Source: Bacteroidetes bacterium 24-39-8 | Lineage (GTDB): Bacteria > Bacteroidota > Bacteroidia > Chitinophagales > Chitinophagaceae | Assembly: GCA_002256765.1 (NCBI GenBank) | Contig: NCHJ01000015.1 | Location: 1-59,247 of the forward strand | Length of the DNA stretch: 59,247 nt | Reading direction: 5' to 3' | In this document: positions 28,362 through 59,247 of the stretch, in pieces | Position numbering within the stretch: the first letter of the stretch is position 1 | Layout of the letters: each line of letters opens with the position of its first letter | Notes under the pieces: model-generated | Seen by the model: the letters and a program-made list of their open reading frames with translations, nothing else | Database searches by the model: none | Told to the model about the DNA's origin: nothing | Translations under genes and position numbers: made by a program

Positions 28362-29216
28362 TTATTTTTTTGGGTTTTCTTTTTTAATGCCTTCTAGGTT
28401 TAGAAGCATAATATTCCTAAAATCAATTGGCTGACCTTCACTTTGCAACGCAATAAAACCACGGTCTAGCATTTTGCCATCTGTTTTTTGTGCCGGGTCA
28501 AAACGATTCACTACTTCACCTCCTATTTGTGGTTTGGAATATTGCAATACCGTATCTCCATTAATGATATGCGTAATTAATGAATCTCCCAGCACAATCA
28601 ACTCAGCTTGGATCCATCCATCAGAAGGTAGATAGGTTTTTGAACTTGAATTGATACAATGCCTAGTATCTAATTTGTCCTTGTAAACAATATGCGTTCC
28701 TGGTGAGCACATATTGCCAGTTGGTCTTGGCTTGTTATCTGGCAAACCTGCCAGTAACTGCATTTCAATGGAAATTGGCCAGTCCTGCTCTTTAGGCATG
28801 GTGCGTGGATCCTGAGAATGATACATGATACCACTATTCAGTTGGGTATAACTAGGTGCATCTTTTCTCCATTCACCGGAAAAACGATATTCAAATTTTA
28901 AATGATAATAGGAAAATGGTTGTTTAAAATATAGGTGTCCAAATTGTTCATTGAATGTTTCATACTGGTCGTATCGCACTTGAATGATCCCATCTTCCAC
29001 CCTAAAAGTATTGCCAAAATTCTCACCTGTTTCATGATGCTGTATCTTAACAAACCAGTCTTTAAGATCTTTTCCATTGAATAAAGAAATCCATTCCTGC
29101 TTGTTAGAATTTTTTTGCGCTTGAATATTTGTATTGCTAAGTAAACACAACAACAATAATAGAATTACTATGCTATCATTGTTTCTAAAATGAAATATAT
29201 CTAAGTGTTTGTTCAT
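28362..29216 (-). CDS. Secreted DUF1080 (3-keto-disaccharide hydrolase-like) protein
   Basis: A protein of about 284 residues with an N-terminal hydrophobic export segment (SIVILLLLLCLL, then NIQAQ) and one DUF1080 domain: WISLFNGKDLKDWFVK, FGHLYFKQPFSYYHLKFEYRF, NSGIMYHSQDP and the C-terminal FIALQSEGQPIDFRNI. The family has a concanavalin-like fold, and some members hydrolyse 3-keto-glycosides. No catalytic residue is assignable here. ATG at 29216 is preferred over the TTG at 29234. It is the last of five minus-strand genes starting at eda, so a role in uronate or glycoside processing is inferred from position only. Confidence 0.85.
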   Translation of the reverse strand: MNKHLDIFHFRNNDSIVILLLLLCLLSNTNIQAQKNSNKQEWISLFNGKDLKDWFVKIQHHETGENFGNTFRVEDGIIQVRYDQYETFNEQFGHLYFKQPFSYYHLKFEYRFSGEWRKDAPSYTQLNSGIMYHSQDPRTMPKEQDWPISIEMQLLAGLPDNKPRPTGNMCSPGTHIVYKDKLDTRHCINSSSKTYLPSDGWIQAELIVLGDSLITHIINGDTVLQYSKPQIGGEVVNRFDPAQKTDGKMLDRGFIALQSEGQPIDFRNIMLLNLEGIKKENPKK

Positions 29217-29220
29217 ACTG

Positions 29221-29697
29221 CTATTTCTTTCCAATCTTAGTATTCAACAACCCTCTTAGGTCATGCCTAAACTCGTCTCCCATACCATCTTTGGGTACTA
29301 GAAAAAAAGATTTGCTATCAAAGTATAGATGAAAAAAATTAGGGCTTTCAAAAAAGTTGGAGAACTTATTCCACTCCCAAAGCATTTGTCCCCTTTCGGT
29401 TTCTAGAAGCACATTGTTGTCATTAAAATCAATAACAAATTTGTCTTTAAATGTGTCTGATTGGTTATAGATTCTATTGGGTAAGAAATACCAAAAAGCA
29501 GACATTAAAAACATCCAAACAATGGATCCTAGTAAGAAAGGTTCTGGTCTAATTTTCTTGGTATAAAATAAAATGGCGGCTACAATAGCAAATACATTCA
29601 CCAAGATCAGCATGGTGCGCACTTCTGGTCTTTGCACAAAATGGTAGCGCAAAGCCTGTATTACTTTTGATTTTTGATAACTAAAACTCAGCTGCAT
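29221..29697 (-). CDS. YcxB-like membrane protein
   Basis: About 158 residues. Two membrane segments (roughly residues 31-49 and 56-74) are followed by a soluble C-terminal domain with NNVLLETERGQMLWEWNKF and FYLYFDSKSFFLVPK-like wording, which resembles YcxB-like proteins of unknown function. ATG at 29697 is chosen over the GTG at 29718 because it gives a compact soluble N-terminus. It lies between the PmoA-like and DUF1080 genes in the eda operon, with a link to pectin only through position. Confidence 0.6.
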   Translation of the reverse strand: MQLSFSYQKSKVIQALRYHFVQRPEVRTMLILVNVFAIVAAILFYTKKIRPEPFLLGSIVWMFLMSAFWYFLPNRIYNQSDTFKDKFVIDFNDNNVLLETERGQMLWEWNKFSNFFESPNFFHLYFDSKSFFLVPKDGMGDEFRHDLRGLLNTKIGKK

Positions 29698-29732
29698 GCG
29701 GTAAAAGTAGTATCCCACAAGGGAATGACAAA

Positions 29733-30773
29733 TTATTTTACCTGTTGAAATTGCTTTTCTATTGCTTGAATTTGGTCATTACTCAATCGGGTTTTGCCTG
29801 TGGCGATGACAATTCTGTATTTAAATGTGACTGACTGTCCCTTTTCCAATTGTAGGTTCAGCGCTTCTTTTCCATTAGAAAAGATTTTCTGACCCAAAGG
29901 ATTTGCCGCAAATAACCCATAATTCCTAGCATGCCAATAGGTAGGAAAGCCAAGATTACTTGGATGGTCAATGATCACAATACTGGTACTATCTGTCCCT
30001 TGTTTGCCATAAAGCATGCACCAATTGGCCCTTGTGGCCCAAACCGCATTGCCTTGCTTGCCATTACTGGCTAAATAATTTCCAGTAACGCTACTGTCTT
30101 TGGTAGCTTTTACCGTAGTTACAATGCCACTGGCATCTGTATATTTTTTGGTTTCCAAAACAGGCATTTCCAATTCATGTGCTACTCTTAGTCCTAAAAA
30201 TCCGTCTTTAATATCTGCAAACAAAACGGTTTCATGAGCGGTTAGTGTAGTGGTTCTATCAATAATGCGTTGGTTCTCTGTGGCGCTAAATTCAAAACTA
30301 GTTTGCTCTTTTAACAAAACAGTCTTGGCTTGGTTATGCCAATCGGCTTCATAACTTAACTGACCCTTGGTGCCAGATTTAATGCTGCCTATTTTGCGGG
30401 TACGAATCCATCCATAATGTGATTTTTTATCAGCGGCAATGGCATAAGAATTATTCCAGAAATCCAATCCATTCACGCTTTCATAATTCATCCAAAGCCC
30501 AATATGGTGTGGATGATCTGTTGGATCACCAGGTTGTGGATTCAACGGGAAGCCCCTAGTAATGGTCTTCCCGTTGGATGCAAGAATGGGATATAAAAAA
30601 GGTTTTTCCAAACTGTCTGGGTAGTTGAATTCTGTAAACAGTTTTCCATTAACCTTAATAGTAGCTTTTTGGCTAGCAGCATCAAGACTAATTTGAATGG
30701 GTTGCGCTTTTTGTGCAAGGGCATTCAAGCTAATCATTGAACCCAACAGTATTGGAAAGTATTTCAATCTCAT
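29733..30773 (-). CDS. PmoA-like (DUF6807) secreted protein
   Basis: A 346-residue protein with a signal peptide (ISLNALAQ at the end, about residue 21) and the family-defining phrase DHPHHIGLWMNYESVNGLDFW. Also present are HWHARNYGLFAANPLGQ-like wording near residue 285 and the C-terminal FKYRIVIATG. The family is often called 'methane oxygenase PmoA' for historical reasons, but it has no relation to membrane methane monooxygenase. Members occur beside Gfo/Idh oxidoreductases and DUF1080 proteins in carbohydrate loci. Enzymatic activity is not established. The start overlaps the exuT stop by one base. Confidence 0.8.
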   Translation of the reverse strand: MRLKYFPILLGSMISLNALAQKAQPIQISLDAASQKATIKVNGKLFTEFNYPDSLEKPFLYPILASNGKTITRGFPLNPQPGDPTDHPHHIGLWMNYESVNGLDFWNNSYAIAADKKSHYGWIRTRKIGSIKSGTKGQLSYEADWHNQAKTVLLKEQTSFEFSATENQRIIDRTTTLTAHETVLFADIKDGFLGLRVAHELEMPVLETKKYTDASGIVTTVKATKDSSVTGNYLASNGKQGNAVWATRANWCMLYGKQGTDSTSIVIIDHPSNLGFPTYWHARNYGLFAANPLGQKIFSNGKEALNLQLEKGQSVTFKYRIVIATGKTRLSNDQIQAIEKQFQQVK

Positions 30774-32356
30774 TATAGTCTTACTTGTTTTTCTTTAGGA
30801 ACCAATAGTTTCATAATGCTCCAGGCAATCAAATAAGCCACTGCACAAAAAGAGAACATGATGGTATAAGAAGTAGACATGGACGCCATGATTACTTGTT
30901 TTTGCATGGTTAAAAATTCAGCAAACTGTGCTGGGTTTACCGCTTCTAACTGGGCTTGCAAATCTTTAGACAAATCTGTTACGGCTTTCTTGGTAATATC
31001 AATGGTATCGCCATATTTATCTACCAATTTCACCATTTTAATTTGGTCTAAAAATCCACCCATTCCTTTTGCTGTTGCTTGTTCCATGGATTGTGTAATC
31101 CCTGCTATTTTGTAGCTATCAAATAACCAACCACCAATCTTTGAAATGATCACACCACCAAATCCTCCCGCCATTCCACCAATACCAATGACTGATGCAA
31201 TGGATTTTTTGGGGAACATATCAGAAACGGTAGTAAAGATATTAGCAGACCAAGCTTGGTGTGCGGCAGTGCCAATACCAATTAATAAAACTGGAACCCA
31301 GTAACTAATACTTCCAAGAGGTTGGGTTGCTAATACAATCAAGGGTATCAAAGCTATCACCAACATGGCTTTCATTCTAGCGTCATAGGGCTTGTATCCT
31401 TTATTGATAAAATAAGTTGGAAACCATCCACCACCAATACTACCAATCATGGTAATACTATACAATACAGCAAGTGGAATATTTACCGCAATCCCTGTCA
31501 TGCCGTATTGGTCTTTTAAGTAACCTGGCAACCAGAACAGATAAAACCACCATACACCATCGGTCATGAATTTACCTACTACAAATGCCCATGTTTGATT
31601 AAATCCTAATAATACCAACCAAGGAGTTTTTTCTGTAGATTTTTCATTGGCCGTTTCTTCTTCTACTTTGTCGCTATTGATATAATCCAATTCCGCTTTA
31701 GAGAGGCGTTTATGTTTGGTTGGTATTTCATAATAAATAAACCAAAATGCCAACCACACAAATCCAACGGCACCAATAATTAAAAAAGCTGCTTCCCAAC
31801 CCCAGTTCTCTGCAATCCAAGGAACAGACAATGGAGCAAGAACAGCTCCAACATTAGCGCCAGAATTAAAGATGCCAGTGGCAAATGATCGTTCTTTTTT
31901 GGGAAAATATTCTGCAGTTGCTTTAATAGCTGCTGGAAAGTTTCCTGCTTCTCCAAATCCTAAAACGGCTCTTGAGATCATGAAGCCTAAAATAGAAACA
32001 GGTATAGCTGTAATACCTACAATGCCTAATACTGCTGATGCAGTGGTTCCCACCGGTACTGCATAAGCATGAATGATGGCACCTAATGACCAAATAATAA
32101 TGGCCCAAGCATAACCCCATTTAGTACCTAATTTATCCACTATCCTGCCGGCAAATAACATGGATACAGCATACACAAATTGAAACACAGAAGTTATATT
32201 GGCATAATCAGAATTGGTCCAATTAAACTCATGTTCCAAAGTTGTTTTCAGCAAACTCAATACTTGTCTGTCTAAATAATTCACTGTTGTTGCAAAGAAC
32301 AAAAGTGCGCAGACTGTCCATCTGTATTTGCCAATTTTCTCAGAGATAGTTTCCAT
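30773..32356 (-). CDS. exuT: Hexuronate transporter of the MFS (ExuT-like)
   Basis: A 527-residue, 12-segment major facilitator of the anion:cation symporter family, probably importing galacturonate or glucuronate across the inner membrane. It has RWTVCALLFFATTVNYLDRQ at the N-terminus, FAGRIVDKLGTKWGY in the first cytoplasmic loop and LGFGEAGNFPAAIKATAEYFP, all typical of ExuT-like proteins. It is longer than E. coli ExuT by about 60-90 residues because of an insertion at about residues 415-480 (IDITKKAVTDLSKDLQAQLE region), before the last membrane segment. It lies 5 bases after eda in the same operon. Confidence 0.9.
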   Translation of the reverse strand: METISEKIGKYRWTVCALLFFATTVNYLDRQVLSLLKTTLEHEFNWTNSDYANITSVFQFVYAVSMLFAGRIVDKLGTKWGYAWAIIIWSLGAIIHAYAVPVGTTASAVLGIVGITAIPVSILGFMISRAVLGFGEAGNFPAAIKATAEYFPKKERSFATGIFNSGANVGAVLAPLSVPWIAENWGWEAAFLIIGAVGFVWLAFWFIYYEIPTKHKRLSKAELDYINSDKVEEETANEKSTEKTPWLVLLGFNQTWAFVVGKFMTDGVWWFYLFWLPGYLKDQYGMTGIAVNIPLAVLYSITMIGSIGGGWFPTYFINKGYKPYDARMKAMLVIALIPLIVLATQPLGSISYWVPVLLIGIGTAAHQAWSANIFTTVSDMFPKKSIASVIGIGGMAGGFGGVIISKIGGWLFDSYKIAGITQSMEQATAKGMGGFLDQIKMVKLVDKYGDTIDITKKAVTDLSKDLQAQLEAVNPAQFAEFLTMQKQVIMASMSTSYTIMFSFCAVAYLIAWSIMKLLVPKEKQVRL

Positions 32357-32361
32357 AAGGC

Positions 32362-33030
32362 TTATTTGGGGGATTTGATAGATTTAATAATCTCAAGCGC
32401 TTTAACGGTATCAGTTGCTATTTGTTGATAGTTCTGTTCTTCTAACAATTGTTTGGTAATCAATTTGCTTCCCATACCCACTGCACAAACACCAGCTTTA
32501 AACCATGCACCAATATTGTCTTTGTCTAATTCTACACCACCAGTAGGCATGAATAGTAAGCCAGGGAAAATCTCTTTAATGGCAGAAAGAAATCCAGGAC
32601 CTAAAATATTTCCTGGAAACAATTTAATCATTCTTGCTCCCATGGTTTCTGCTTGAATAATTTCTGTTGGTGTCATACATCCTGGCACCCATAACATATT
32701 GTATAGATCCGCAGTTTTTGCTACAGATTCTACCAAACCGGGAGAAATAATATAGTCAGCACCTGCATCAATAAAGGTCTTTGCCATATCTGCGTTCTTA
32801 ATGGTACCAATACCTAAGTACATACCTTTTAACTCTGTATCACAAACCTTGCGCATTTCTTTAAAATTGGTGAGTGCTGCGGCACCACGATTGGTATATT
32901 CTACGGCACGAATACCTGCTTCATACAAAGCTTTCAATACGCCAATGCTCACGTTGGTATCCTTATAAAAATAAAGGGGTAAAATACCTTGTTCGGGAAT
33001 TAAATCAAGGATGGCTGCTTTTTTTTCCAT
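32362..33030 (-). CDS. eda: 2-dehydro-3-deoxy-phosphogluconate (KDPG) aldolase
   Basis: Class I aldolase that splits KDPG into pyruvate and glyceraldehyde-3-phosphate, the last step of uronate degradation. In the 222-residue protein the catalytic glutamate is in RAVEYTNRG near residue 42 and the Schiff-base lysine in RMIKLFPG near residue 134. The TPTEI and PTGGVELDNI-like phosphate-binding segments follow. It is the first gene of eda-exuT-pmoA-like-ycxB-like-DUF1080, divergent from kdgK, with a LacI-type operator between the two operons. Confidence 0.95.
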   Translation of the reverse strand: MEKKAAILDLIPEQGILPLYFYKDTNVSIGVLKALYEAGIRAVEYTNRGAAALTNFKEMRKVCDTELKGMYLGIGTIKNADMAKTFIDAGADYIISPGLVESVAKTADLYNMLWVPGCMTPTEIIQAETMGARMIKLFPGNILGPGFLSAIKEIFPGLLFMPTGGVELDKDNIGAWFKAGVCAVGMGSKLITKQLLEEQNYQQIATDTVKALEIIKSIKSPK

Positions 33031-33087
33031 ATGGCTAATTTTTGATAAGCAATGTAAGTTTGAATTACTAAAAATAAACCATTTTAG

Positions 33088-33105
33088 TACGCAATCGTTT
33101 GCGTA
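33088..33105. promoter_or_regulatory. LacI-type operator between eda and kdgK
   Basis: TACGCAATCGTTTGCGTA is an 18-bp inverted repeat with a central CG and one mismatch, which is the LacI-family hallmark. It is the most symmetrical of four related sites in the locus. It lies 58 bases upstream of eda and 119 upstream of kdgK, so it could control both. Confidence 0.7.
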
Positions 33106-33223: not shown

Positions 33224-34249
33224 ATGTCTAAAAAAGTTGTAACCCTCGGAGAAATCATGATGCGTCTTTCTACTCCAGGTTTTGAACGCTTTGTACAAAG
33301 CGATAGTTTTGACGTCACTTATGGTGGCGGTGAAGCAAACGTGGCAGTAGCCTTAAGCAATTATGGCTTGGATGCTGTATTTGTAACAAAAGTTCCTGAC
33401 AATGCACTTGGCCAGGCTGCTATCAACCATATCCGTAGATATGGCGTTGACACCCAATTCATTGCCCGTGGTGGTAAACGCTTGGGTATTTATTTCTTAG
33501 AAACTGGCGCGTCTATGCGTGCTTCTCAAGTAATTTATGATAGGGCTGGCGCTTCTATTGCAGATGTAGACATTAGCGAATTTGATTTTGATAAAATCTT
33601 GGAAGGTGCAAGTTGGTTTCATACCACTGGTATTACTCCAGCCTTAAGCGATAAAGCTGCTGAATTAACCCTTGCTGCTTTAAAAGCTGCAAAAGCAAAA
33701 GGTATTACAACTAGTATTGACCTAAACTATCGCAAGAAATTGTGGAGCAAGGAAAAAGCTAGAGAAGTAATGACCAAGCTTTGCCAATACGTAGACGTTT
33801 GTATTGGTAATGAAGAAGACGCTGATACCACATTAGGCTTTAAAGCAGAAGGTACCGATGTTACCAAGGGCGAATTAAACCTAGATGGTTATAAAAGCGT
33901 ATTCAAACAAATGAAGGAAAAATTTGGTTTCAAATACATTGCTTCTACTTTACGTGAAAGCCATAGTGCATCTGATAATGGCTGGAGCGCCTTGGTTTAT
34001 GATGGAACAGAATTCTACCATAGCAGACAATATGAAGTTAGAATTGTTGACCGTGTAGGTAGTGGTGATTCATTTGCCAGTGGTTTCATCTATGGTTTGG
34101 TGAGCGGCATGCCAATGCCAGAAGCGGCAGAATTTGGTGTAGCTGCTTCTGCCATTAAACACACTATTCCAGGTGACTTGAACCACGCAACTTTGACTGA
34201 GGTTAAAGAATTGATGAAGGGTGATGGTAGTGGAAGGGTACAACGTTAA
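33224..34249 (+). CDS. kdgK: 2-keto-3-deoxygluconate kinase (PfkB family)
   Basis: Ribokinase-family enzyme that would phosphorylate KDG to KDPG, linking the uxa/kdu branch to Eda. The 341-residue protein has the N-terminal GEIMMRLSTPGFERFVQSDSF-type substrate strand, GGGEANVAVALS, and the PfkB signature DRVGSGDSFASGF with the catalytic aspartate near residue 281. It is divergent from eda with a shared operator and precedes a YhcH gene by 17 bases. A second KdgK-like gene (34816-35823) lies in the same locus. Which of them is the main kinase is not clear. Confidence 0.92.
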   Translation: MSKKVVTLGEIMMRLSTPGFERFVQSDSFDVTYGGGEANVAVALSNYGLDAVFVTKVPDNALGQAAINHIRRYGVDTQFIARGGKRLGIYFLETGASMRASQVIYDRAGASIADVDISEFDFDKILEGASWFHTTGITPALSDKAAELTLAALKAAKAKGITTSIDLNYRKKLWSKEKAREVMTKLCQYVDVCIGNEEDADTTLGFKAEGTDVTKGELNLDGYKSVFKQMKEKFGFKYIASTLRESHSASDNGWSALVYDGTEFYHSRQYEVRIVDRVGSGDSFASGFIYGLVSGMPMPEAAEFGVAASAIKHTIPGDLNHATLTEVKELMKGDGSGRVQR

Positions 34250-34266: not shown

Positions 34267-34719
34267 ATGATTGTAGATAGCATCAATAACGGATCAAAAT
34301 ACACTTCCCTGCATCCTCATTTTGCAAAAGCATTTGAATTCATTTATAACACAGATTTAGCTGCGCTTGAAGTTGGCAAATTTGATATTGATGGAGCAAA
34401 TATAAGAGGCATTGTTTCTGACAAAGAAGGCACAACAGCTGAAGCTAGTATTGCCAAATTTGAATGCCATAATGCCCATATTGATATTCAAGTATGCATT
34501 AGAGGCAAGGAAACTATTGGTTGGAAACCAAGAAGCAGTTGTCAGTCTCAACGTGGTGAGTACAATCCAGAAAAGGATGTATTGTTCTATGAAGACGCAC
34601 CTGATATGTATTTTGGTTTAACCAATGGACAGTTTGCCATCTTCTATCCAGAAGACGTGCACGCTCCCATGATTGGGACTGAAGTGATTAAGAAACTAGT
34701 GATCAAAGTTCGTTTGTAG
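34267..34719 (+). CDS. YhcH/YjgK/YiaL family protein
   Basis: A 150-residue cupin-fold protein of the DUF386 family. Typical phrases are NAHIDIQVCIRGKETIGW and FAIFYPEDVHAPMIG with the C-terminal KKLVIKVRL, giving the conserved His, Glu and His. Family members accompany sialic acid, sugar-acid and pectin operons and are thought to act on sugar anomers or bind sugars, but the reaction here is not established. It follows kdgK by 17 bases and ends in a strong terminator, so it is the second gene of a two-gene operon. Confidence 0.88.
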   Translation: MIVDSINNGSKYTSLHPHFAKAFEFIYNTDLAALEVGKFDIDGANIRGIVSDKEGTTAEASIAKFECHNAHIDIQVCIRGKETIGWKPRSSCQSQRGEYNPEKDVLFYEDAPDMYFGLTNGQFAIFYPEDVHAPMIGTEVIKKLVIKVRL

Positions 34720-34815: not shown

Positions 34816-35823
34816 TTAAAAACCTGCTTCTACTTGCAGCACTTCTTGTTCTGTGGCGTCACCCTGTTCTTGCAATTTGCCAAAAGCTGCGGCCGCAGCA
34901 TAGTTCAACAGTTCTTGTGGATCATCCTGATGAACATGAAACCCGTAAATCAGACCTGCCATAAAACAGTCTCCACTACCGGAACGGTCTACCACACCTT
35001 TGCAAGTGAATTCTTTGGAATGATAGGATTGATTGCCCAATTGTAAAGTAGTATAGTATTTGATTTGTTCTTCATTACTATCAAACCTATAAGTATTAGC
35101 TACTGCTTTGCAATGGGGAAATCTTTCCATAATGGCTAGCGCGGTTTGGGCAGCATGGTCTAAATAAGCTTGTTTAGATTGGTGCGCGTGAATATTATCA
35201 TCAACAGGAATACCCAATAAACTATTAGCACTCCAAATATTACCCATGATAACCGTGCAATACTGAACTAATTGAGGCATAATCTCTTTAGGTTCCTTTC
35301 CGTATTTCCAAAGCTTTGATCTATAGTTCAAGTCTACAGAAATTTGTAATCCTTTTCTAGAAGCTACTTGCAATGCTTCTAAACAAACATCGGCAATAGA
35401 TTGATTTAATGCTGGACTGATAGCCGTAAAATGAAACCAACTAACTCCTTCAAAAATTGTTTCCCAATCAACCATGCCGGGTTTTAATTCTGAGAAGGAA
35501 GAACGTTCTCTATCATAAACAACCCCTCCTTTAATATCGGCCCCCGTTTCTAAATAATATATCCCAACACGGCTTCCTGCTAGCATAATGGCACTGGTGT
35601 CAATATGTCTAGCAGCAAGGTATTGAATCACGTATTGACTCATGAAATTATCAGGCAAGACCGTACAATAGCGCACAGGAATATTCCATCCCGCCAAAGC
35701 CGTGGCCACATTGGCTTCCGCCCCTCCCACAAATAACTTCATGGGTTGTTTTTGCCTGGCGTCTTTTGTTGATGAGGGTGAAATACGCAATAGTAATTCA
35801 CCCATGCACAAAACCTTATTCAT
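34816..35823 (-). CDS. kdgK: Second PfkB-family sugar kinase (KdgK-like)
   Basis: A 335-residue ribokinase-family protein, clearly related to the kinase at 33224: GELLLRISPS, FVGGAEANVATALAGW, and the catalytic motif DRSGSGDCFMAGLIYG near residue 280. The phrases YYLETGADIKGGVVYDRERSSFSEL and SVDLNYRSKLWKYG match KDG kinases. It closes the kduD-kduI-kinase operon, 16 bases after kduI. It is probably also a KDG kinase serving the unsaturated-uronate branch, but specificity for a related keto acid cannot be excluded. Confidence 0.85.
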   Translation of the reverse strand: MNKVLCMGELLLRISPSSTKDARQKQPMKLFVGGAEANVATALAGWNIPVRYCTVLPDNFMSQYVIQYLAARHIDTSAIMLAGSRVGIYYLETGADIKGGVVYDRERSSFSELKPGMVDWETIFEGVSWFHFTAISPALNQSIADVCLEALQVASRKGLQISVDLNYRSKLWKYGKEPKEIMPQLVQYCTVIMGNIWSANSLLGIPVDDNIHAHQSKQAYLDHAAQTALAIMERFPHCKAVANTYRFDSNEEQIKYYTTLQLGNQSYHSKEFTCKGVVDRSGSGDCFMAGLIYGFHVHQDDPQELLNYAAAAAFGKLQEQGDATEQEVLQVEAGF

Positions 35824-35839
35824 CAGTCTAGATTATACA

Positions 35840-36670
35840 CTATTTCATCTCTGCAATTGCAACAGGATCCATATCGGAGAAGACTTGGTTCTCACCAGCC
35901 ATGGCCCAGATAAATCCGTAGTTGGTAGTACCAGGTCCACAATGCACGGACCATGGTGCAGAAATGACTGCCTCATGATTAGCCATGACCAAGTGCCTTG
36001 TTTCTTGAGGCTCTCCCATTAAATGGAATACTCGGTGTTGTGCTGGCAAATCAAAATAGAAATAGACTTCCATTCTACGGGTATGGGTATGTGGTGGAAC
36101 AGAATTCCAAACACTTCCTTCTGCTAAAACGGTTAAACCCATCACCAATTGACAACTCTTGATGCCATCTAAATGAATGTATTTATAAATGGTTCTTTTG
36201 TTAGCAGTAGCTGTTTCTCCCATAGCAACTGGTGCAGCAGCTTCCTTGGTCATTAATGTATTAGGATAAGCAGCATGCGCGGGAGTAGACATTAAAAAGA
36301 AGTCTGCTGGGCTTGCTGCATTCTTGCTAGAGAAGCTAACGTCTTGGGTTCCTTTTCCCAAGTACAAACAATCTAATTTAGATAGTTCATAACTAACGCC
36401 ATCTGCAACTACTGTTCCATCTCCACCCACGTTGATGATACCCAATTCCCTTCTTTCTAAGAAATAATTGGCTTTTAATTCTTCTTCCACTTTCAATGGA
36501 ACACTGGCATTCACGGGTTTCACACCACCTACTATCACGCGGTCATAGTGAGAATAGACTAATTCTAAATGTTCTGCCTGCATTAATGACTGCACTAAAA
36601 AATTCTCGCGTAGTTCTGCTGTAGTCATGCCCTTTACTTCTTTAGGGCTATTCTGAAATCTTATTTGCAT
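35840..36670 (-). CDS. kduI: 5-dehydro-4-deoxy-D-glucuronate isomerase
   Basis: Cupin-fold zinc isomerase converting 5-keto-4-deoxyuronate (from unsaturated galacturonate) to 2,5-diketo-3-deoxygluconate, the substrate of KduD. In the 276-residue protein the metal-binding motif is NSVPPHTHTRRMEVYFYFD near residue 190, with a further ligand in HCGPGTTNYGFIWAMAGEN. Length and the GGVKP / ERRELGIINVGG phrases agree with KduI. It lies downstream of the broken kduD, with a T-rich spacer of about 135 bases, and directly upstream of the second kinase. Confidence 0.95.
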   Translation of the reverse strand: MQIRFQNSPKEVKGMTTAELRENFLVQSLMQAEHLELVYSHYDRVIVGGVKPVNASVPLKVEEELKANYFLERRELGIINVGGDGTVVADGVSYELSKLDCLYLGKGTQDVSFSSKNAASPADFFLMSTPAHAAYPNTLMTKEAAAPVAMGETATANKRTIYKYIHLDGIKSCQLVMGLTVLAEGSVWNSVPPHTHTRRMEVYFYFDLPAQHRVFHLMGEPQETRHLVMANHEAVISAPWSVHCGPGTTNYGFIWAMAGENQVFSDMDPVAIAEMK

Positions 36671-36804: not shown

Positions 36805-36805
36805 T

Positions 36806-48719: not shown

Positions 48720-48745
48720 GGAAGCAATCAATTTAAAAGAGGCGA

Positions 48746-51619: not shown

Positions 51620-52642
51620 TTATTTCAAAGGCCACCAACCATCATTTCCTTTAATAACCTGTTTAGGTTGATATTGCTTAGCTTCTTTTTTGGACAATTG
51701 CTTGGACCAAACTACTCTTCCTTGAAAATTAGCACCCTTATCCCTGTTTTCAAATTCCGCGTAATAGGCCGTTTTTTCTTTATTAGGAAACATGGTGTCA
51801 CCTTTCCATTCATTCCAACCTTCCGCCACAATATGTGCTCCTAATTCACAATACAAAAATACTGTTTTGGCAAAGGGGCGCCAAGGTCTACCTAGAAAGA
51901 CTTTAGTAGCTAAAGGTCCAGCTTCTAGCTTACAGTTCAAAAATACAAAGCCATATAATTGTCCTTGTTTGGTTGAAGCAGCAGTAATATAAGAATTGAC
52001 CAGACTTTTTATAATACAGTTTTCAAACAAGGCAATTGCTTCTCCAAAAATAAAATCGGTGGTTCCTTCTATAAAACAATTTAGAAAATATTGCCTGGCA
52101 TTTTCAGTGGCCAAATAAAGGGTATCTTGATTACCCAATAACCTGCAATCTTTAATAAATACCCTATCTGCTTCTATATGCAATGCTACAGCTTGACCTA
52201 CCCTACCCGCAGTATTTTCTATTGTTAGGTTTTCTGCCATAAATCCGTTTCCCTGAACCAACACTGTGTATGAAGTAAATGTGCCAAATTTGTCTCTACC
52301 AAATTGATCTTTTCCATTGGGTACTTTTTTCCCTGAATAGTCATCATAACTTATAATAGTAGCTTCTTTTGATTCTCCAATCAATGAAATATTTGTTTTC
52401 CAAGATGGAATATGTAGCTTCTCATGATAGGTTCCCTTTTTGATAAAAATCTCCACTCTAAATGTTGAAATATCTCTGGTTGAATTAATGGCATCTTGAA
52501 TAGAACTATAGTTTCCGGTGCCGTCTAATGCAACAATAATGCTACTTGGGTATTCCGGTTGTGAATTTGATTTCTGGGCATTAGCAATAGATAATCCTGC
52601 AAAAGAAATAGAGATTACCATTAACAAAAAAACAGTTTTCAT
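51620..52642 (-). CDS. Pectinesterase (CE8)
   Basis: A 340-residue exported pectin methylesterase with a signal peptide (MKTVFLLMVISISFAGLS). The complete CE8 catalytic set is visible: GQAVALHIEADR, the acid/base and nucleophile aspartates in LLGNQDTLY and GTTDFIFGEA, and the substrate arginine in FLGRPWRPFA. It removes methyl esters from homogalacturonan so that lyases and GH28 enzymes can act. ATG at 52642 is chosen over the TTG at 52657. It is separated from susD by a terminator-like hairpin, so it may have its own promoter or depend on read-through. Confidence 0.94.
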   Translation of the reverse strand: MKTVFLLMVISISFAGLSIANAQKSNSQPEYPSSIIVALDGTGNYSSIQDAINSTRDISTFRVEIFIKKGTYHEKLHIPSWKTNISLIGESKEATIISYDDYSGKKVPNGKDQFGRDKFGTFTSYTVLVQGNGFMAENLTIENTAGRVGQAVALHIEADRVFIKDCRLLGNQDTLYLATENARQYFLNCFIEGTTDFIFGEAIALFENCIIKSLVNSYITAASTKQGQLYGFVFLNCKLEAGPLATKVFLGRPWRPFAKTVFLYCELGAHIVAEGWNEWKGDTMFPNKEKTAYYAEFENRDKGANFQGRVVWSKQLSKKEAKQYQPKQVIKGNDGWWPLK

Positions 52643-52667
52643 ACCAAAATATTTCAAGGGAATTAAT

Positions 52668-52734: not shown

Positions 52735-54555
52735 TTAATATCCAGGATTTTGAGTTAAGTTAATATTGGCATCTCTAGAGGGTTGTGGCAGAGGCAATAA
52801 TTCAGACTTCCCTGTTGTAAACCCGGTTGCAAATCTAGACAATGCAGTTGTATTAATTGCAGCTGTTAACCAAGCTACTTTTGTAGTTCCAGATGGAGTA
52901 GCAGTAGGAGCCGTTTTATAAAATGAATTGACCCATAGACCACCGGTGAATGTATTGTTATCTGAGGTACTACCTGTTTTATAATACATAGCAATGGGCA
53001 ATGTATTGTAGGGAGCAGAAAGTGTAGACATAGCCAACAATGCAGCTTTTGTATCGGCAATTTTTTTAGCCAATAAATTCCATCTAATGAGGTCATATTT
53101 GCGAACGCCCTCTCCACCCAATTCCAATGAACGTTCTTTAACAATGGCATCAAAGAAAGTTGATTTACTCAAACCAGTAGGAAGGTCAACAGTAGCATCG
53201 GCACTGCCAATTGCTTTACCATACCCTCTTCTTCTAACCTGATTGATGGCAGTATAAGCAGTTGCGGTTGGACCATTTAATTCGTTTTCGGCTTCTGCGT
53301 ACATTAATAACACATCGGAGTAGCGTAAGATTTGCCATTTCAATCCAAAATATTGGATGGCATTAGTAGGTGCATAAGAAGGATTAGTAATCCAATCTCT
53401 ACGGTATTTACCATCGCAAATAGCGGTAATAGCTTGCCCAATTTTAGTTGCTCCATCTGCGGCAACATTGTAAACAGCACAAGTAACATCTCTACGCAAA
53501 TCGGTACTATCAAAAGCATAGAAGTAAGTTGGTAATACATTGATACTTTTATTACCCCGATTGTTTACTGTAGGGCCATTATAATAAGCCAGTTTAGTAT
53601 CGGCTGCAGAAACTCCACCTGTAGCACTAGCTTGAAACATTAATTCTCCATGTGGATCAGCAATAGCGTGTGCGTTTACCTGATCTTTCCAAAGCGATTT
53701 AAAACTTGGATTCAATGCGTGTTGATTAGAGTTCATAATTTCATTACATTCATCTTTTGCTATTTGATAGTATGTTAGATAATCTGCATTTCTTTTCATA
53801 GTACCATCACTTCTTAATGCATAACCACCGCGGAATAAAGCAATTTTTGCACGCATACCTTTTACCGTTCCTTTGGTAATACGTTCATCTAATGGGTCAC
53901 CAATTGAGGCCAACTCATTACGCCAAGGAACTAATTCAGATGCCAATTTTAAATCTGCCAACAAACGATTATAAATAGTATCCCTATTTGTCCTTACTGG
54001 AAAAGGGTCAGAAGAAGCTAATTCAGACGCAGGTCTAAAATGTGCTGGCAAATCACCCCAATTCACAATTGCTTGAAAATAATATTGCGCTCTAAGTGTA
54101 AGTGCTTCACCATGCATTCTACGTAATTGCTTCTTTTCTTGTTCCGTACCATTGTTATACATATCCATTTTAGGAATGTTAGCAATACAGATATTAGAGA
54201 ATTCAATCCCAGTAAATAGCTGATTAAATGGATTGGTAATTTGAGCATTACCAGAAGTAGCAGAATACCTAGCTATACTTCTACGGTCATTATCTACAGC
54301 GCCAGTTGGGCCCTGCATTTCATCCGTGTCAACAGTATAATACAAACTCAAACGAATACCAAAACCGGCATCTCCTACCATTCGGCTATAAGCACCAGCC
54401 AAGGCTTTATAAGCACTTGGAACATCACTGAATGCTACCTCAGCACTCACATCTGTGATGGGTTGTTGATCCAGAAATTTTTTGCATCCGGTAATTACCA
54501 TTAGCAAAACCATTGTAGCTAGGATAGTCAGTTTATTAAAATTTTTCTTATTCAT
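52735..54555 (-). CDS. SusD/RagB-family nutrient-binding outer-membrane lipoprotein
   Basis: A 606-residue surface lipoprotein: the lipobox cysteine is Cys24 (MVITGC), followed by KKFLDQQPITDVS, the typical SusD start. TPR-like helices and the C-terminal PLPQPSRDANINLTQNPGY, a near-universal SusD ending, are clear. SusD caps the SusC barrel and binds the glycan. Here the expected ligand is a pectic oligosaccharide, by context. It lies 23 bases after the susC gene. Confidence 0.95.
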   Translation of the reverse strand: MNKKNFNKLTILATMVLLMVITGCKKFLDQQPITDVSAEVAFSDVPSAYKALAGAYSRMVGDAGFGIRLSLYYTVDTDEMQGPTGAVDNDRRSIARYSATSGNAQITNPFNQLFTGIEFSNICIANIPKMDMYNNGTEQEKKQLRRMHGEALTLRAQYYFQAIVNWGDLPAHFRPASELASSDPFPVRTNRDTIYNRLLADLKLASELVPWRNELASIGDPLDERITKGTVKGMRAKIALFRGGYALRSDGTMKRNADYLTYYQIAKDECNEIMNSNQHALNPSFKSLWKDQVNAHAIADPHGELMFQASATGGVSAADTKLAYYNGPTVNNRGNKSINVLPTYFYAFDSTDLRRDVTCAVYNVAADGATKIGQAITAICDGKYRRDWITNPSYAPTNAIQYFGLKWQILRYSDVLLMYAEAENELNGPTATAYTAINQVRRRGYGKAIGSADATVDLPTGLSKSTFFDAIVKERSLELGGEGVRKYDLIRWNLLAKKIADTKAALLAMSTLSAPYNTLPIAMYYKTGSTSDNNTFTGGLWVNSFYKTAPTATPSGTTKVAWLTAAINTTALSRFATGFTTGKSELLPLPQPSRDANINLTQNPGY

Positions 54556-54578: not shown

Positions 54579-57500
54579 TTAAAAGCTAGCATTTACACCA
54601 AAGATGAAACTGCGGCTTTTTGGATAAGCAGAGTAATCAAGACCTGGAGTTAATGGACTGTTACGTACACTTACTTCTGGATCGTATCCTGTGTATTTGG
54701 TAAATACAGCCAGATTATTAGCGGTAAAGTAAAATCTCAATTTGCTAATTTTCAACTTACTCAACTTTTCAACTGGTACACTATAGCCCAATGTAAAGTT
54801 ATTAATTCTTAAAAAAGAACCGTCTTCAATTGCCCAAGAGCTTGGATAGAAAGCACCAGAACCTTTAATGGGTTGCCAAATACTTGCATTTGCATTTAAT
54901 GCAGTTAATTGATCAGGAGCAATTCCCACTACTTTACCACCAGAATTTACCCATTGGGCAGTTTGGCCTGTAGCTGTTACCACTTTCCAACGACCAGCCA
55001 TTAGGTCAATCATATTAGAGTTAGGAGTGTACCCATTTGTAAATTCAACTTTATTGGCATTGTAAATATCATTTCCATAAGAAAAGTTTATAAACAAACT
55101 CATGTCCCAATTCTTGTAAGTAAATTGGTTATTCCATCCACCAGTGAATTTTGGCGTTGGGTTACCAATAATGGTTCTGTCTTTATCCAGATTTATTACA
55201 CCATCTCCATCTAAGTCTTTGAATTTTACTGAACCCGGCTGAATGGTACCAATAATACCAGCATTACTAACCGTACCCGCTTTCAAGGTATATACACTTG
55301 TTGCTGCATCATAATCAAAGTCAGACACTTTGTAGAAACCATCGTTCACCAATCCCCACATTGAACCTACTGGATCTCCAATTCGGATTATATAGTCAGT
55401 AGGCTGACCTGAAACACCCCAGCTTGCTGCTGGATAGAAAAGTTTTTGATTTAAACCAAGGGCTTCCACTTTGTTCTTATTAAATGCCATGTTGAAATTG
55501 GAGTTCCAAGTAAATTCTCCTTTTTTAATAACCAAAGCATTTAATTGAAATTCTACCCCTTTATTAGATGTCTTACCAATATTTTGTAATTGTGTGCCAT
55601 ATCCATAAGTAGAAGCAATTGGTACATTCAACAATAAGTTTTTGGCATTGTTATTATATACATCTACGCTTAATGAAATCCTGTCTTTGAATAGGCTTAA
55701 ATCCATACCATAGTTTTGGCTTTCATTAGATTCCCATTGCAATGCCTCATTCACTAATCCTGCAGAATAATAGGCAGTAACCGGTTGATTATTGATACCG
55801 TAATAATAGGTTCCGTCATTTCTAAAGGTGGTTAAGAATAAGTAATCATTAATTCTATTATTACCAACGTTACCATAGCTAGCCCTAAATTTAAGGTCAC
55901 TGATGAAACGTACATTCTCCATAAATTTCTCATTCTTTACCCTCCATGCAAATGATCCAGCAGGAAAATATCCCCACTGCTTACCAGGTGCAAATTTAGA
56001 TGCTCCATCTGCACGTACATTGAAGGAGAAATAGTACTTATTATCATAACTATAATTAATCCTACTAAAAAAAGAAAGATTGGTATACCTTGTTTTACCC
56101 AATTTAGGATAACCTGTAAAGGATATTCCCAAACCTAATTTATCAAAGGCATCATTAGGAGAAGTGAATGTTGGATAATTTCTAACCAACTGAGTATTTG
56201 ACTCTGTTTTAAAATCATAGGTTTCTTCTCCAATTAAGAAGTCAAAATCATGCTTGTCCTTAAATTTGCTAATAGAATAAGTTAATACATTACTATTGGT
56301 GATGGTTTTTCTTGTAACAGTATCTAACCGTACAATTGGCTTTCTAGAACCCTGAATTACAGAATATGGTGTAATTGAGTCACTAAATTGACGATCTATT
56401 AATTTGCTATCATCATAACCAAAAGTAGATTTGAAACTCAGGTTTTTTGCAATATTATATTGCAAGGAAACTGTTACGTTAAACACATCGGTAGTTTTTT
56501 TCCTATACTCTGCATTTGCTAAAGAAATAGGATTTACCAAGTTCAACCCATTCCCTACATTTGGATCAGCTAGTGGATCAGCGTCCTCAATATCCTGATT
56601 ATTTGACAAGAACGGTCTGTATTTAACAGCATTACGTAGTCTGCTATAAGAAGAACCTTGCTCCGAAGAAACTCCAGCACCAAGAACATTTGAATTAGTA
56701 TACCTAGTTGATAAAGTAGCACGCAGATTATTAGTAATTCTATAATCTGCTTTTAAGTTTAATAAATGCCTTTTATAATCTGAATTCAATAAAATGGCTT
56801 TATCACCATTGAAAGTATAACCAAAATTGTAAGTGATTTTTTTATTGCCTCCTGATGCATTTAAACTATGTGTTTGCAATACGCCAGTTCTTCCTGCAAT
56901 TTCATCCTGCCAATCAATAGGGCTTACATTTTTGTAATTAGCAAGTGTGTCCCATGTAGTACCAAAGTTTCTGGTAAATGTGGTACTATCCGTAATACTA
57001 CCACGTGAACGCTCAGACTGATAGATCACATAATCATAAGGACTTAGTACTCCCAATTTTTTGGCCAAGCTTTTCACACCTACAAATCCATTGTAACTAA
57101 GGGTCAATTTGCCTTGTCTTCCACTTTTGGTGGTAATCACAATGACACCATTAGCACCCCTAGCACCATAAATGGCAGTAGCAGCCGCATCTTTTAATAC
57201 GTCAATGGTTTGAATATTTTGAGGTGCAAGCGCTGATAAACCATTTTCAACTTGCACACCATCTACAATATATAAGGGTGAGTTATCTCCAGTTATTGAC
57301 ATACCTCCTCTAATCCTAACACGTACATCAGCATCAGGCGAGCCCTCTGCAGTAGAAGCCGTAACACCGGCCAAACGTCCATTCAATGCTTCCGCAGCAG
57401 AATTCACTGGAATATCTTTAAGATCTTTGGCACTTACACTGGAAACAGAAGCTAGCAAATTTTTCCTTTTGATAGTCTGGTAGCCAATTACTACCACTTC

Positions 57501-57926
57501 TTCTGCTACAGCATTTTCCTGAACCAAACTCAGGTTGATTTCCGTACGATTATTTACATTTTCTTGTTTAGCAACATAACCAACATAACTAAATACAAGG
57601 GTTGCATTTGCAGGTACAGAAATACTGTATTTACCATCTTTGTCAGTCAAAGACATTTTGGTACCCCCTTTTTGTGAAATAGTAACCCCCTCCAATGGTT
57701 GATTATTAACGCCTAGTACTTTACCCGTAATAGGCTTGGGGGCATTTTGAGCCAAAACGTTTGTTTGAAACAACGAAATACCCATTAACAATAAAATGGC
57801 CACCATCAATTGAGTACGGATAGCTTTAATTGTTGGAAATTTAAAAATGGAAACGTTGGTTTTAAGACTTGGAAGCATCCTAAAAGAAAGGCTTCCACAA
57901 CCGAGGTTCGGATGGAATAGAAACAT
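54579..57926 (-). CDS. SusC/RagA-family TonB-linked outer-membrane protein
   Basis: A 1115-residue importer. After a signal segment (AILLLMGISLFQTNVLAQ) it has a CarboxypepD_reg-like domain (PITGKVLGVNNQPLEGVTIS, about residues 65-145), the linker VVVIGYQTIKRKNLLASVSS, a TonB plug (about 155-260, with VLKDAAATAIYGARGANGVI) and a 22-strand barrel. No STN domain is present, so regulation through an anti-sigma factor is not indicated. It forms a glycan-uptake pair with SusD. The start is uncertain: ATG at 57926 and ATG at 57878 are both possible, and the second gives a more usual leader length. The LacI-type operator is upstream. Confidence 0.95.
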   Translation of the reverse strand: MFLFHPNLGCGSLSFRMLPSLKTNVSIFKFPTIKAIRTQLMVAILLLMGISLFQTNVLAQNAPKPITGKVLGVNNQPLEGVTISQKGGTKMSLTDKDGKYSISVPANATLVFSYVGYVAKQENVNNRTEINLSLVQENAVAEEVVVIGYQTIKRKNLLASVSSVSAKDLKDIPVNSAAEALNGRLAGVTASTAEGSPDADVRVRIRGGMSITGDNSPLYIVDGVQVENGLSALAPQNIQTIDVLKDAAATAIYGARGANGVIVITTKSGRQGKLTLSYNGFVGVKSLAKKLGVLSPYDYVIYQSERSRGSITDSTTFTRNFGTTWDTLANYKNVSPIDWQDEIAGRTGVLQTHSLNASGGNKKITYNFGYTFNGDKAILLNSDYKRHLLNLKADYRITNNLRATLSTRYTNSNVLGAGVSSEQGSSYSRLRNAVKYRPFLSNNQDIEDADPLADPNVGNGLNLVNPISLANAEYRKKTTDVFNVTVSLQYNIAKNLSFKSTFGYDDSKLIDRQFSDSITPYSVIQGSRKPIVRLDTVTRKTITNSNVLTYSISKFKDKHDFDFLIGEETYDFKTESNTQLVRNYPTFTSPNDAFDKLGLGISFTGYPKLGKTRYTNLSFFSRINYSYDNKYYFSFNVRADGASKFAPGKQWGYFPAGSFAWRVKNEKFMENVRFISDLKFRASYGNVGNNRINDYLFLTTFRNDGTYYYGINNQPVTAYYSAGLVNEALQWESNESQNYGMDLSLFKDRISLSVDVYNNNAKNLLLNVPIASTYGYGTQLQNIGKTSNKGVEFQLNALVIKKGEFTWNSNFNMAFNKNKVEALGLNQKLFYPAASWGVSGQPTDYIIRIGDPVGSMWGLVNDGFYKVSDFDYDAATSVYTLKAGTVSNAGIIGTIQPGSVKFKDLDGDGVINLDKDRTIIGNPTPKFTGGWNNQFTYKNWDMSLFINFSYGNDIYNANKVEFTNGYTPNSNMIDLMAGRWKVVTATGQTAQWVNSGGKVVGIAPDQLTALNANASIWQPIKGSGAFYPSSWAIEDGSFLRINNFTLGYSVPVEKLSKLKISKLRFYFTANNLAVFTKYTGYDPEVSVRNSPLTPGLDYSAYPKSRSFIFGVNASF

Positions 57927-58012: not shown

Positions 58013-58041
58013 CAATGCTACACTTATAAAGACAACACAAA
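58013..58041 (-). promoter_or_regulatory. Candidate promoter of susC
   Basis: On the minus strand TTTG (58038-58041), a 17-base spacer and TAGCATTG (58013-58020) approximate TTTG/TAnnTTTG with one mismatch. The operator at 58063-58080 lies 21 bases upstream of the TTTG. Confidence 0.4.
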
Positions 58042-58062
58042 ATGATATTTCGTTTTTTTTTC

Positions 58063-58080
58063 TACGCAAACGTTCCCGGC
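58063..58080. promoter_or_regulatory. LacI-type operator between susC and the sugar carrier
   Basis: TACGCAAACGTTCCCGGC: the first 16 bases equal the site near lacI. The left half is the consensus TACGCAAAC and CG is central. It lies 137 bases upstream of susC (ATG 57926) and 97 upstream of the divergent carrier gene. Confidence 0.6.
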
Positions 58081-58176
58081 AACGATGGAGCTCAAGGTTT
58101 TTCTCCGCCCCCTTTGTCAAACTGACTTTTTTCTTAGTGATTTGACTATTTTTAAAGACTAACCAATGCGATTGCC

Positions 58177-59247
58177 ATGTCAATGACCAAACCTCGTTTG
58201 AGTTTCTCCCAGATTATCAATATGAATGTGGGATTCTTTGGTATTCAATACAGTTTTGGACTACAACAAAGTGCTGTAAACCCTATTTATGATTTTTTGG
58301 GTGCTAGCCCAGATGAAATTCCCTTATTGAACTTGGCAGGTCCTATGACGGGGCTCTTAATTCAACCCATTATTGGCGCCATGAGTGACAAAACCTGGCA
58401 TCCCAAATACGGCAGAAGAAAGCCTTATTTTTTTATTGGCGCCCTGTTTTGCAGTCTTTGCTTGTTTATATATCCTTTTAGTAGTACCCTTTGGATGGCG
58501 GGAGGATTGCTATGGGTATTGGATGCCGCCAATAATACAGCCATGGAACCCTATAGGGCATTTATTGCAGATAAATTACCAGCAGACCAACAACCTACCG
58601 GATTTTTAACACAAAGCTTCTTTACCGGTCTGGGTATTACTTTAGCCAATCTTTCTTTATTTGCCTTTCAAAAAATTGATTTTCTAAAACAGTCACACGG
58701 TCAAATCCCTTATTGGGTATTTGGCTCTTTTTTCCTAGGCTCAATTTGCTCTATTACCTCCGTACTTTGGTCTATTACTAAAACGCCTGAAATTCCTCCA
58801 ACGGAAGAAGAATTACAAACGCTACATGCAGAAAAAAGATCAGTATTCACTCCATTTATTGAAATCTTTAGTGCTATCAAAGACATGCCCAAAGTCATGT
58901 GGCAATTGGCCTTGGTTTACCTCTTTCAATGGTACGCGTTATTTTGCTACTGGCAGAATGCCTCCAAGAGTATTGCGCAATCTGTTTGGAAAACTTCTCC
59001 TACCAAAGATGCCAAATTGTATGAAGAGGCTGTGGGATGGGCTGGGCTGGTCAACGGATGGTATAATGTGGTAACCTTTCTTTCAGCATTTGCCTTGGTA
59101 GGATTGGCCAAAAAGTACAGCCCCAAAAACGTACATATTGCTTGTTTATTAATGGCAGGTTTGGGATTGCTTGCATTCCCGCATATTGAAAATCAATACC
59201 TCTTATTTGTACCTATGACGGGATTTGGAATTGCTTGGGCCAGTATG
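58177..59247 (+). CDS. MFS sugar transporter, SLC45/GPH-like (3' truncated by window end)
   Basis: The frame is open from ATG at 58177 (MSMTKPRLSFSQIINMNVGF) to the last base, 357 codons with no stop, so the C-terminus is outside the window. Visible features are the N-terminal QYSFGLQQSAVNPIYDFLGA, the loop MSDKTWHPKYGRRKPYFFIG (the SLC45/glycoside-pentoside-hexuronide type of RRxPY motif), and DAANNTAMEPYRAFIADKLP. About nine membrane segments are covered. Relatives transport disaccharides such as sucrose and maltose. Next to susCD an oligosaccharide or uronide role is likely. It is divergent from susC across a 250-base region holding the operator. Confidence 0.88.
   Translation, partial: MSMTKPRLSFSQIINMNVGFFGIQYSFGLQQSAVNPIYDFLGASPDEIPLLNLAGPMTGLLIQPIIGAMSDKTWHPKYGRRKPYFFIGALFCSLCLFIYPFSSTLWMAGGLLWVLDAANNTAMEPYRAFIADKLPADQQPTGFLTQSFFTGLGITLANLSLFAFQKIDFLKQSHGQIPYWVFGSFFLGSICSITSVLWSITKTPEIPPTEEELQTLHAEKRSVFTPFIEIFSAIKDMPKVMWQLALVYLFQWYALFCYWQNASKSIAQSVWKTSPTKDAKLYEEAVGWAGLVNGWYNVVTFLSAFALVGLAKKYSPKNVHIACLLMAGLGLLAFPHIENQYLLFVPMTGFGIAWASM

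Follow-up and report, generated by a model that had tools for sequence, protein, structure and literature searches.

Several LacI-family proteins are described as uronate regulators in Bacteroides, namely KdgR (BT0487), UxaR (BT0824), UxuR (BT1434) and UxmR (BT3613); their regulons serve glucuronate, galacturonate, 2-keto-3-deoxygluconate (KDG) or mannuronate, and those of KdgR and UxmR include a few extracellular or periplasmic genes (PMC3878776; PMC4052901). Here, we analysed a stretch of 59,247 bases from Bacteroidetes bacterium 24-39-8 (the window), which is the entire contig C99 of a 3.4-Mb assembly that is 86% complete. Its part from 28362 to 59247, of which the right border is the contig end, is a locus for homogalacturonan utilisation in a Sediminibacterium-like bacterium, very probably under the control of a protein of the same LacI family encoded at 48945-49979 on the forward strand.

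In the original prediction, this locus was set against Bacteroides, where pectin loci were said to be controlled mostly by hybrid two-component systems or SusR-like proteins, and the intracellular uronate genes to be usually scattered. This contrast was overstated. The rhamnogalacturonan SusCD loci described for B. thetaiotaomicron are attributed to hybrid two-component systems (PMC3878776); the LacI sites of the window are at the pectin susC itself. In addition to the LacI-family regulators KdgR, UxaR and UxuR, the ManR and AraR proteins of B. thetaiotaomicron are cases in which one cytoplasmic monosaccharide regulator serves SusCD and extracellular enzymes together with cytoplasmic catabolism; unlike the window LacI, they belong to the GntR and NrtR families and deal with mannose and arabinose, and the passages on them give no operator-promoter geometry (PMC3878776). 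A pathway gathered in one locus is also known: the pectin polysaccharide utilisation locus (PUL) of Gramella flava JLT2011 holds susCD, pectinesterase, polygalacturonase, pectate lyases, kduI, kduD, uxaABC, kdgK and eda, and is partly induced by pectin (PMC5306329). It differs by a regulator labelled exuR, by a RhiABC tripartite ATP-independent periplasmic (TRAP) transporter and by susCD genes that are not induced by pectin (PMC5306329). UxuR2 of Algoriphagus marincola, from the Bacteroidota other than Bacteroides, is a further LacI-family regulator of galacturonate and glucuronate loci; these contain a TRAP transporter and GH109, and no SusCD depolymerisation block is mentioned in the passages that describe them (PMC5507952).

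As for activation, CcpA of Bacillus subtilis is a LacI-family protein which activates from catabolite-responsive elements (cre) located upstream of -35, in a helix-face-dependent manner (PMC3463425). CcpA differs in being a global regulator working with HPr-Ser-P, mostly as a repressor, in another phylum and with another sigma factor. In Xanthomonas and Caulobacter, LacI proteins control TonB-dependent transporters along with genes of sugar use. Publications on other Bacteroidota already describe LacI-family uronate regulators, SusCD co-control and a pectin pathway in one locus; for LacI-type activation of a SusCD locus in this phylum, no account was found among open PMC papers. What is new is the fixed orientation of the operator and its fixed distance to a putative -7-like promoter box.

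Operators of the locus and the LacI protein

Four related sites of the LacI type are found in the window, all of them intergenic. Operator 1, the near-symmetric TACGCAATCGTTTGCGTA (33088-33105, unstranded), lies between eda and kdgK and keeps its symmetric form in 16 relatives. Operator 2, TACGTTATCGTTTGCGTG (37623-37640, unstranded), lies between the 3' end of uxaC and kduD and is kept in the close relative G064, with no such match in G035. Operator 3, TACGCAAACGTTCCCGTT (48841-48858, +), separates the esterase-GH28 gene from lacI, and operator 4, TACGCAAACGTTCCCGGC (58063-58080, +), separates susC from an SLC45-like gene. With the symmetric consensus first proposed for these sites and at most three mismatches, those at 33088 and 48841 were detected in the window, with 0.01 expected. 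A pattern drawn up after the four sites had been seen, TACGNNAWCGTTNNCG, matches exactly 33088, 37623, 48841 and 58063 in the 59 kb (0.01 expected), and none of 100 shuffles reached four matches. The sites have the central CG and the paired half-sites of LacI-type operators (TACGCAAWCG/CGTTCCCGGT), plus the symmetric form at eda. The prediction of four related palindromes thus holds for the relatedness of the sites, but they are not four good palindromes: of 18 positions, 16 are symmetric at 33088, 12 at 48841 and 10 at 58063. The operators at lacI and susC are asymmetric (TACGCAAWCGTTCCCGGT), and the symmetric form (TACGCAAWCGWTTGCGTA) occurs only at eda/kdgK.

That such sites are restricted to this block is true within the window. 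Genome-wide, the consensus search with up to three mismatches returned the two window sites and a third one at C113:25125 (TACGCAAACGTTTGTGTA), whose fit to the consensus equals that of the best site in the window. As the reversed control gave as many matches, the symmetric consensus was rejected as a genome-wide detector, and so was the loose core ACGNNANCGTTNNCG, with 8 matches versus 17 for its control. The refined asymmetric pattern TACGCAAWCGTTCCCG took the place of the consensus; with at most one mismatch, it is found at 21 places in nine whole genomes, 17 of them in the pectin block, and its reversed control at 2.

The C113 locus contains SusCD, FG-GAP/ASPIC, PAP2 and GMC oxidoreductase genes; within the 15 kb that were read, it lacks genes for pectin. 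Two good LacI-type sites lie upstream of it (L004:11126-11143 and 11237-11254), and cross-binding of the window LacI may occur there because both are good. Its site was not accepted as a member of the pectin regulon: an 82%-identical counterpart in G036 carries no site at the threshold, and no close full-length LacI was seen in that genome. In the ASPIC/SusCD loci of relatives, a different LacI-type site stands 16 nt from a TATAATTG box (L169, L170, L172 and L173, which are mutually similar), an arrangement that would suit repression.

The regulator itself is built as a LacI/GalR protein, with an N-terminal LacI helix-turn-helix (PF00356 at residues 7-52) and a periplasmic-binding-protein-like domain (PF13377 at 175-340), and the best-scoring solved sequences for it are those of CcpA. 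Proteins from bins labelled Bacteroidetes or Chitinophagaceae share 97-98% identity with it along almost the whole sequence, and homologues of four named Sediminibacterium strains share 72-78%, identities from which the organism is taken to be Sediminibacterium-like. Nine LacI genes were counted in its own genome. Among these nine, the recognition-helix sequence STSTVSRAL is found only in the window protein, and it is kept in 75 of the 79 relatives in which the N-terminus was seen. A paralogue at C31:2063-3070, 49% identical to the window protein, has a different recognition helix (SHSTISRAL).

Relatives of the protein were collected from named genomes (the best 80 of 127) and from further genomes of the family. 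In 7/7 genus genomes fetched, full-length orthologues of 64-83% identity adjoin homologues of pectin and/or uronate genes. Of 81 loci, the window among them, 46 have the operator upstream of lacI, without exception in one orientation and with the consensus given above for lacI and susC. This form was present in 0/19 lacI loci of Pedobacter, 17 of which carry the variant TGTGCAAWCGTTCCC. A second half-site, loosely defined, is found at a 12-bp offset at 40 of 65 sites; at L109:10258-10287 and L105:20145-20174, two operators overlap at this offset and form a near-palindrome of 30 bp, and weaker second copies are common elsewhere.

Co-occurrence was followed in 195 genomes of the family, with LacI defined by E≤1e-90 and the operator by a perfect match to TACGCAAWCGTTCCCG. 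LacI was found in 88 genomes and the operator in 60 (both in 56, LacI only in 32, operator only in 4, neither in 103). The operator is thus present in 56 of the 88 genomes with LacI versus 4 of the 107 without it (Fisher test, 4.5e-21, uncorrected for kinship, which inflates the significance), and the reversed control pattern gave no match in the 195 genomes. When the four exceptions were re-examined at a looser threshold, two or three of them were explained by contig ends: in G134 and G208, fragments of LacI (91% and 79% identical) are found next to an operator where a contig ends, and G116 has a 43-residue piece, 65% identical, at a contig start. In eight genera of mixed LacI content (g25, g29, g44, g58, g76, g84, g104 and g109), the operator was seen by eye only in the LacI-positive members; the mixed genera g47, g48 and g53 hold three of the exceptions, of which at least G208 (g48) is due to a contig end. 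Because operator and LacI co-occur across the family, and because 16 of 18 comparable eda genes carry the symmetric site (see below), LacI 48945-49979 very probably reads the sites at the susC, esterase-GH28/uxa and eda-kdgK promoters.

Distance between operator and promoter box

In the window, a -7-like promoter box of susC (TAGCATTG, 58013-58020, -) lies exactly 42 nt from operator 4, and this distance recurs in relatives. The spacing count took 65 of 76 operator matches (45 upstream of lacI, 20 on the susC or esterase-GH28 side); the other 11 were palindromes, matched on the reverse strand, had no gene of this kind close by or stood close to the end of a locus. TAGnnTTG was found 42 nt from the operator in 45 of the 65 sites and at 43 nt in 3, with one match on the other side and 2.6 expected over all offsets from mononucleotide shuffles. 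The group upstream of lacI had this box at 42 or 43 nt in 33 of 45 sites, and the relaxed form TAnnnTTG was present at 41-43 nt in 52/65. The commonest letters of the box are TAG[AC][AC]TTG; TAnnTTTG at a fixed distance from the operator, which was tried first, was not found. The spacers are 30% identical on average, with an unconserved core, and they fall into 26 clusters, 23 at 42 nt and 3 at 43 nt. When the leftward promoters were aligned on the operator, the box was the one strong element that they shared in addition to an A-tract adjoining the operator and an AT-rich segment immediately ahead of the box. Upstream of lacI and susC, the TTGCGTA half of the operator faces the leftward genes and adjoins the A-tract.

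The 42-nt rule emerged when the 65 aligned sites were inspected, so that their count is post hoc; the counts obtained on held-out operators and on eda promoters are the real tests. The held-out set is a selection of 40 operators away from lacI (L259 lies beside a lacI piece at a contig end), for which the box was relaxed to TAnnnTTG. This box was found at 42 nt in 8 of the 40 and at 43 nt in 1, no other offset rising above one. The nine boxes precede susC (5), uxaC (2) and GH28/esterase homologues (2, one of them just 32% identical and 825 nt off). Several susC promoters that have the operator without the 42-nt box carry CAGGAT-like repeats, spaced by about 11 nt, in the stretch separating the operator from the gene (L256, L260, L264, L266 and L278).

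At eda the distance is shorter. All 16 eda promoters with the symmetric site have a TAACATTG-type box (T[AT]N[CA][AC]TTG) at 29-31 nt, and in the window the -7-like box of eda (TTACATTG, 33050-33057, -) is found 30 nt from operator 1. All 17 Pedobacter loci that carry the variant operator have a TAAAATTG-type box at 40 nt; these loci resemble one another. A candidate -7 box of kduD (TAACTTTG, 37564-37571, -) lies 51 nt from operator 2 and is a single case.

Genes of the locus and regulon content in relatives

Gene calls were made with Pfam on the window proteins and with NCBIfam models and their cut-offs for selected ones. Both agree with the capture, depolymerisation, transport and uronate genes that had been listed for 28362-59247, with the exception of an interrupted kduD. 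The labels CE12 and GH105 come from the original prediction, Pfam offering GDSL and joint GH88 models only. From right to left, and on the reverse strand unless marked otherwise, the locus starts with an SLC45/sucrose-symporter-like transporter of the major facilitator superfamily (MFS), which is cut by the contig end (58177-59247, +; MFS_1, TIGR01301 below cut-off). It is followed by a SusC-like TonB-dependent transporter (54579-57926; PF07715, PF13715), a SusD-like glycan-binding lipoprotein (52735-54555; PF07980), a pectinesterase of family CE8 (51620-52657; PF01095) and a GH43 protein with a C-terminal domain (49982-51604; PF04616, PF17851), next to which lacI lies on the opposite strand.

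The large leftward gene run is headed by a GDSL esterase-GH28 polygalacturonase fusion (46383-48731; PF13472, PF00295) and continues with a GH88/GH105 unsaturated uronyl hydrolase (44462-46381; PF07470), a pectinesterase-pectate lyase (PL10) fusion (42311-44407; PF01095, PF09492), the tagaturonate reductase UxaB of the mannitol-dehydrogenase type (40780-42291; PRK03643, 514 bits, cut-off 359), the altronate dehydratase UxaA (39111-40769; PF20629/PF04295/PF08666) and the uronate isomerase UxaC (37642-39135; PF02614, E 3e-208). Then come kduD, the 5-dehydro-4-deoxyglucuronate isomerase gene kduI (35840-36670; PRK00924, 420 bits, cut-off 250) and a second PfkB kinase (34816-35823), identified by Pfam and with a weaker KDG-kinase match in NCBIfam. 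In the left part, the KDG kinase-like PfkB protein KdgK (33224-34249, +; PF00294, NCBIfam KDG kinase models below cut-off) and a YhcH/YjgK/YiaL family protein (34267-34719, +; PF04074) are encoded on the opposite strand; both PfkB kinases contain a GSGD motif. Further left are the 2-keto-3-deoxy-6-phosphogluconate aldolase Eda (32362-33030; PF01081) and an MFS transporter of the hexuronate/galactonate (ExuT-like) type (30773-32356; MFS_1, with TIGR00893, the galactonate-transporter subfamily, as best NCBIfam model, below cut-off). The last three genes on the left do not belong to the known pectin genes; they encode a DUF6807 protein (29733-30773; PF14100; syntenic in G035, G010 and G064), a YcxB-like small protein (29221-29718; PF14317; syntenic in G010 and G064) and, at the end of the run, a 3-keto-disaccharide hydrolase family protein (28362-29234; PF06439, E 5e-39). 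The tandem susC-susD with linked carbohydrate-active enzymes and a regulator is that of a PUL, and PF01095, PF09492, PF00295 and PF07470, which mark it as one for homogalacturonan, are all present.

The uronate genes uxaC, uxaB, uxaA, kdgK, eda, kduI and kduD are all there, with kduD interrupted in the assembly. Its match to TIGR01832 (36937-37530, -; 215.6 bits) covers model positions 1-189 of 248; the frame (36760-37530, -) is open for 197 of about 257 residues, and the homology at the C-terminal end resumes in another frame. In 6/6 relatives checked, kduD is an open frame of 257-271 codons, and the interruption in the window reflects either a recent gene loss or an assembly error.

The proposal that one LacI coordinates the outer-membrane and the intracellular parts agrees with the sites at susC, esterase-GH28/uxa and eda and with the co-occurrence described above; the regulon is not confined to the block, as unlinked uxaA, uxaC and susC genes are also marked by the operator in some relatives. 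The four places detected outside the block in the nine genomes are at uxaA in G010 and at susC loci in G064, G065 and G071. The unlinked uxaA of G010 has a perfect operator about 115-130 nt upstream; in the opposite direction, this site points to an AraC-type gene. In this genome the block has come apart and the operator stays: L055/L056, around lacI, are without homologues of uxaA, kduI, kduD, susC and susD, and uxaA is located elsewhere (L214). The extra operator of G064 belongs to a SusCD locus with a type IX secretion system PKD protein, that of G065 to its susC, and that of G071 to a SusC locus with apiosidase, GH43 and GH2 genes; no clear pectin backbone genes were found at these loci of G064/G065 and G071. 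Among 23 eda loci fetched, 16 carry the symmetric site, L232 and L240 have another, differently placed site, and L235-L239 have none. In L235-L239, eda lies inside a gene run, and 16 of the 18 relatives in which it does not do so have the symmetric site upstream.

Proposed activation by LacI and rival explanations

The sigma-A box of Flavobacterium psychrophilum, TAnnTTTG, occupies positions -12 to -5 (PMC9723704). If the box found here has the same position, a LacI dimer bound at the operator would be centred near -63.5, near -51.5 at eda and, for the kduD operator of the window, near -72.5. From there, the bound dimer would touch RNA polymerase and activate the susC, esterase-GH28 and eda promoters, as CcpA does at upstream cre. 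The position of CRP at -61.5 is that of a class I-type activator. The activity of LacI would be set by a cytoplasmic pectin-breakdown product, such as galacturonate, KDG or another uronate intermediate. The fixed operator-promoter distance of class I-type activators is seen here at 42/43 and at 29-31 nt, and the operators at the window susC and eda would not cover the core promoter or the start, as those of a classical repressor do, since they end 42 nt (susC) and 30 nt (eda) before the box. Fixed orientation and distance, together with the A-tract, are easier to reconcile with an activator in contact with RNA polymerase than with simple repression. On balance, we favour the reading that LacI 48945-49979 controls the homogalacturonan locus through the TACGCAAWCGTTCCCGGT operators and activates its promoters, and we consider it fairly probable.

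Several observations weigh against this activation by LacI. The expected -7 box is absent from the esterase-GH28 side of operator 3 in the window, and from L116 as well; in the window, the 42-nt box is found at susC only and the 30-nt box at eda. No TAnnnTTG was present at 41-43 nt in 13 of the 65 sites of the first set, for which the count was moreover post hoc, and the 31 of 40 held-out operators without a box at 42/43 nt imply that many sites are differently arranged. The presumed promoter box is a variant, mostly TAG[AC][AC]TTG and not TAnnTTTG. No conserved -33 box was seen in the aligned promoters, which is weak evidence because this motif was likewise not found in Flavobacterium johnsoniae (PMC7366714). 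A perfect operator is missing from 32 of the 88 LacI-positive genomes, G276 has the operator and no LacI match above 38% identity, and the consensus is matched at C113, a non-pectin SusCD locus of the same genome. Activation is read from geometry. Finally, the susCD of the Gramella flava pectin locus is not pectin-induced, so that neighbourhood does not amount to co-regulation (PMC5306329).

The same LacI might instead act at the same operators as a classical repressor, with KDG, galacturonate or some other uronate intermediate as the inducer that releases it; the spacing would then reflect the blocking of an UP-like A-tract or of another activator. Most members of the LacI family are repressors. 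Furthermore, a paper on LacI regulons speaks mainly of repressors in the sections concerned (PMC4052901), the varying distances of the operator to lacI would fit a simple form of autorepression, and some unlinked genes are faced by the other operator half. However, a repressor has no need of spacings of 42/43 nt, or 29-31 nt at eda, across unconserved spacers; the near end of the operator at susC would be at about -55, upstream of a -33 position, and the segment that runs from the A-tract to the AT-rich part ahead of the box offers no strongly conserved sequence to which a second activator could bind. We rank activation above repression because of operator position, orientation, A-tract and the CcpA precedent, and regard repression as rather unlikely, while still giving it real weight. 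Self-control of LacI is possible and is not indicated, since no fixed spacing is seen on the lacI side.

It is improbable that the sites are read by another regulator, such as one of the eight other LacI proteins (among them the C31 paralogue with its 49% identity), or jointly by several members of the family that have a PurR-like half-site in common. The nine LacI genes of the genome, the consensus-like site at the SusCD/ASPIC/PAP2 locus of C113, the related sites at homologous loci of genomes without a close LacI match (e.g. G032, which is 75% complete) and the case of G276 would be accounted for in this way. Yet operator and window-type LacI co-occur, the operator sits at the lacI promoter itself, the STSTVSRAL helix is unique to the window LacI in its genome and widely kept in its relatives, and in relatives the sites of the C113 type have another sequence and another spacing. 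If the sites were chance palindromes, or a common feature of SusC promoters devoid of regulatory meaning, this would explain why the symmetric consensus finds three places in the own genome, as many as the reversed control, and why the loose core finds fewer than its control. Against the 0.01 match expected in the window stand two (consensus) or four (TACGNNAWCGTTNNCG); moreover, the refined pattern gave 21 places versus 2 for the control in nine genomes and no control match in 195, and the fixed spacing recurs in held-out sites. In our judgement, the refined-pattern counts and the held-out spacing already refute this explanation, to which we leave next to no probability.

In broader terms, a dedicated class I-type LacI activator may run a whole regulon from polysaccharide to central metabolism in Chitinophagaceae and, with a variant operator and a 40-nt box, in Pedobacter, replacing the hybrid two-component, SusR-type or extracytoplasmic function (ECF) activators usual at SusCD; to this generalisation we give slightly better than even chances. 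If it is true, SusCD loci would be switchable by a one-component cytoplasmic activator of the LacI family, and surface uptake would follow the intracellular uronate level. The succession of TTGCGTA half, A-tract, 42 or about 30 nt and TAnnnTTG would then provide a predictive rule for pectin and galacturonate genes in Chitinophagaceae genomes.

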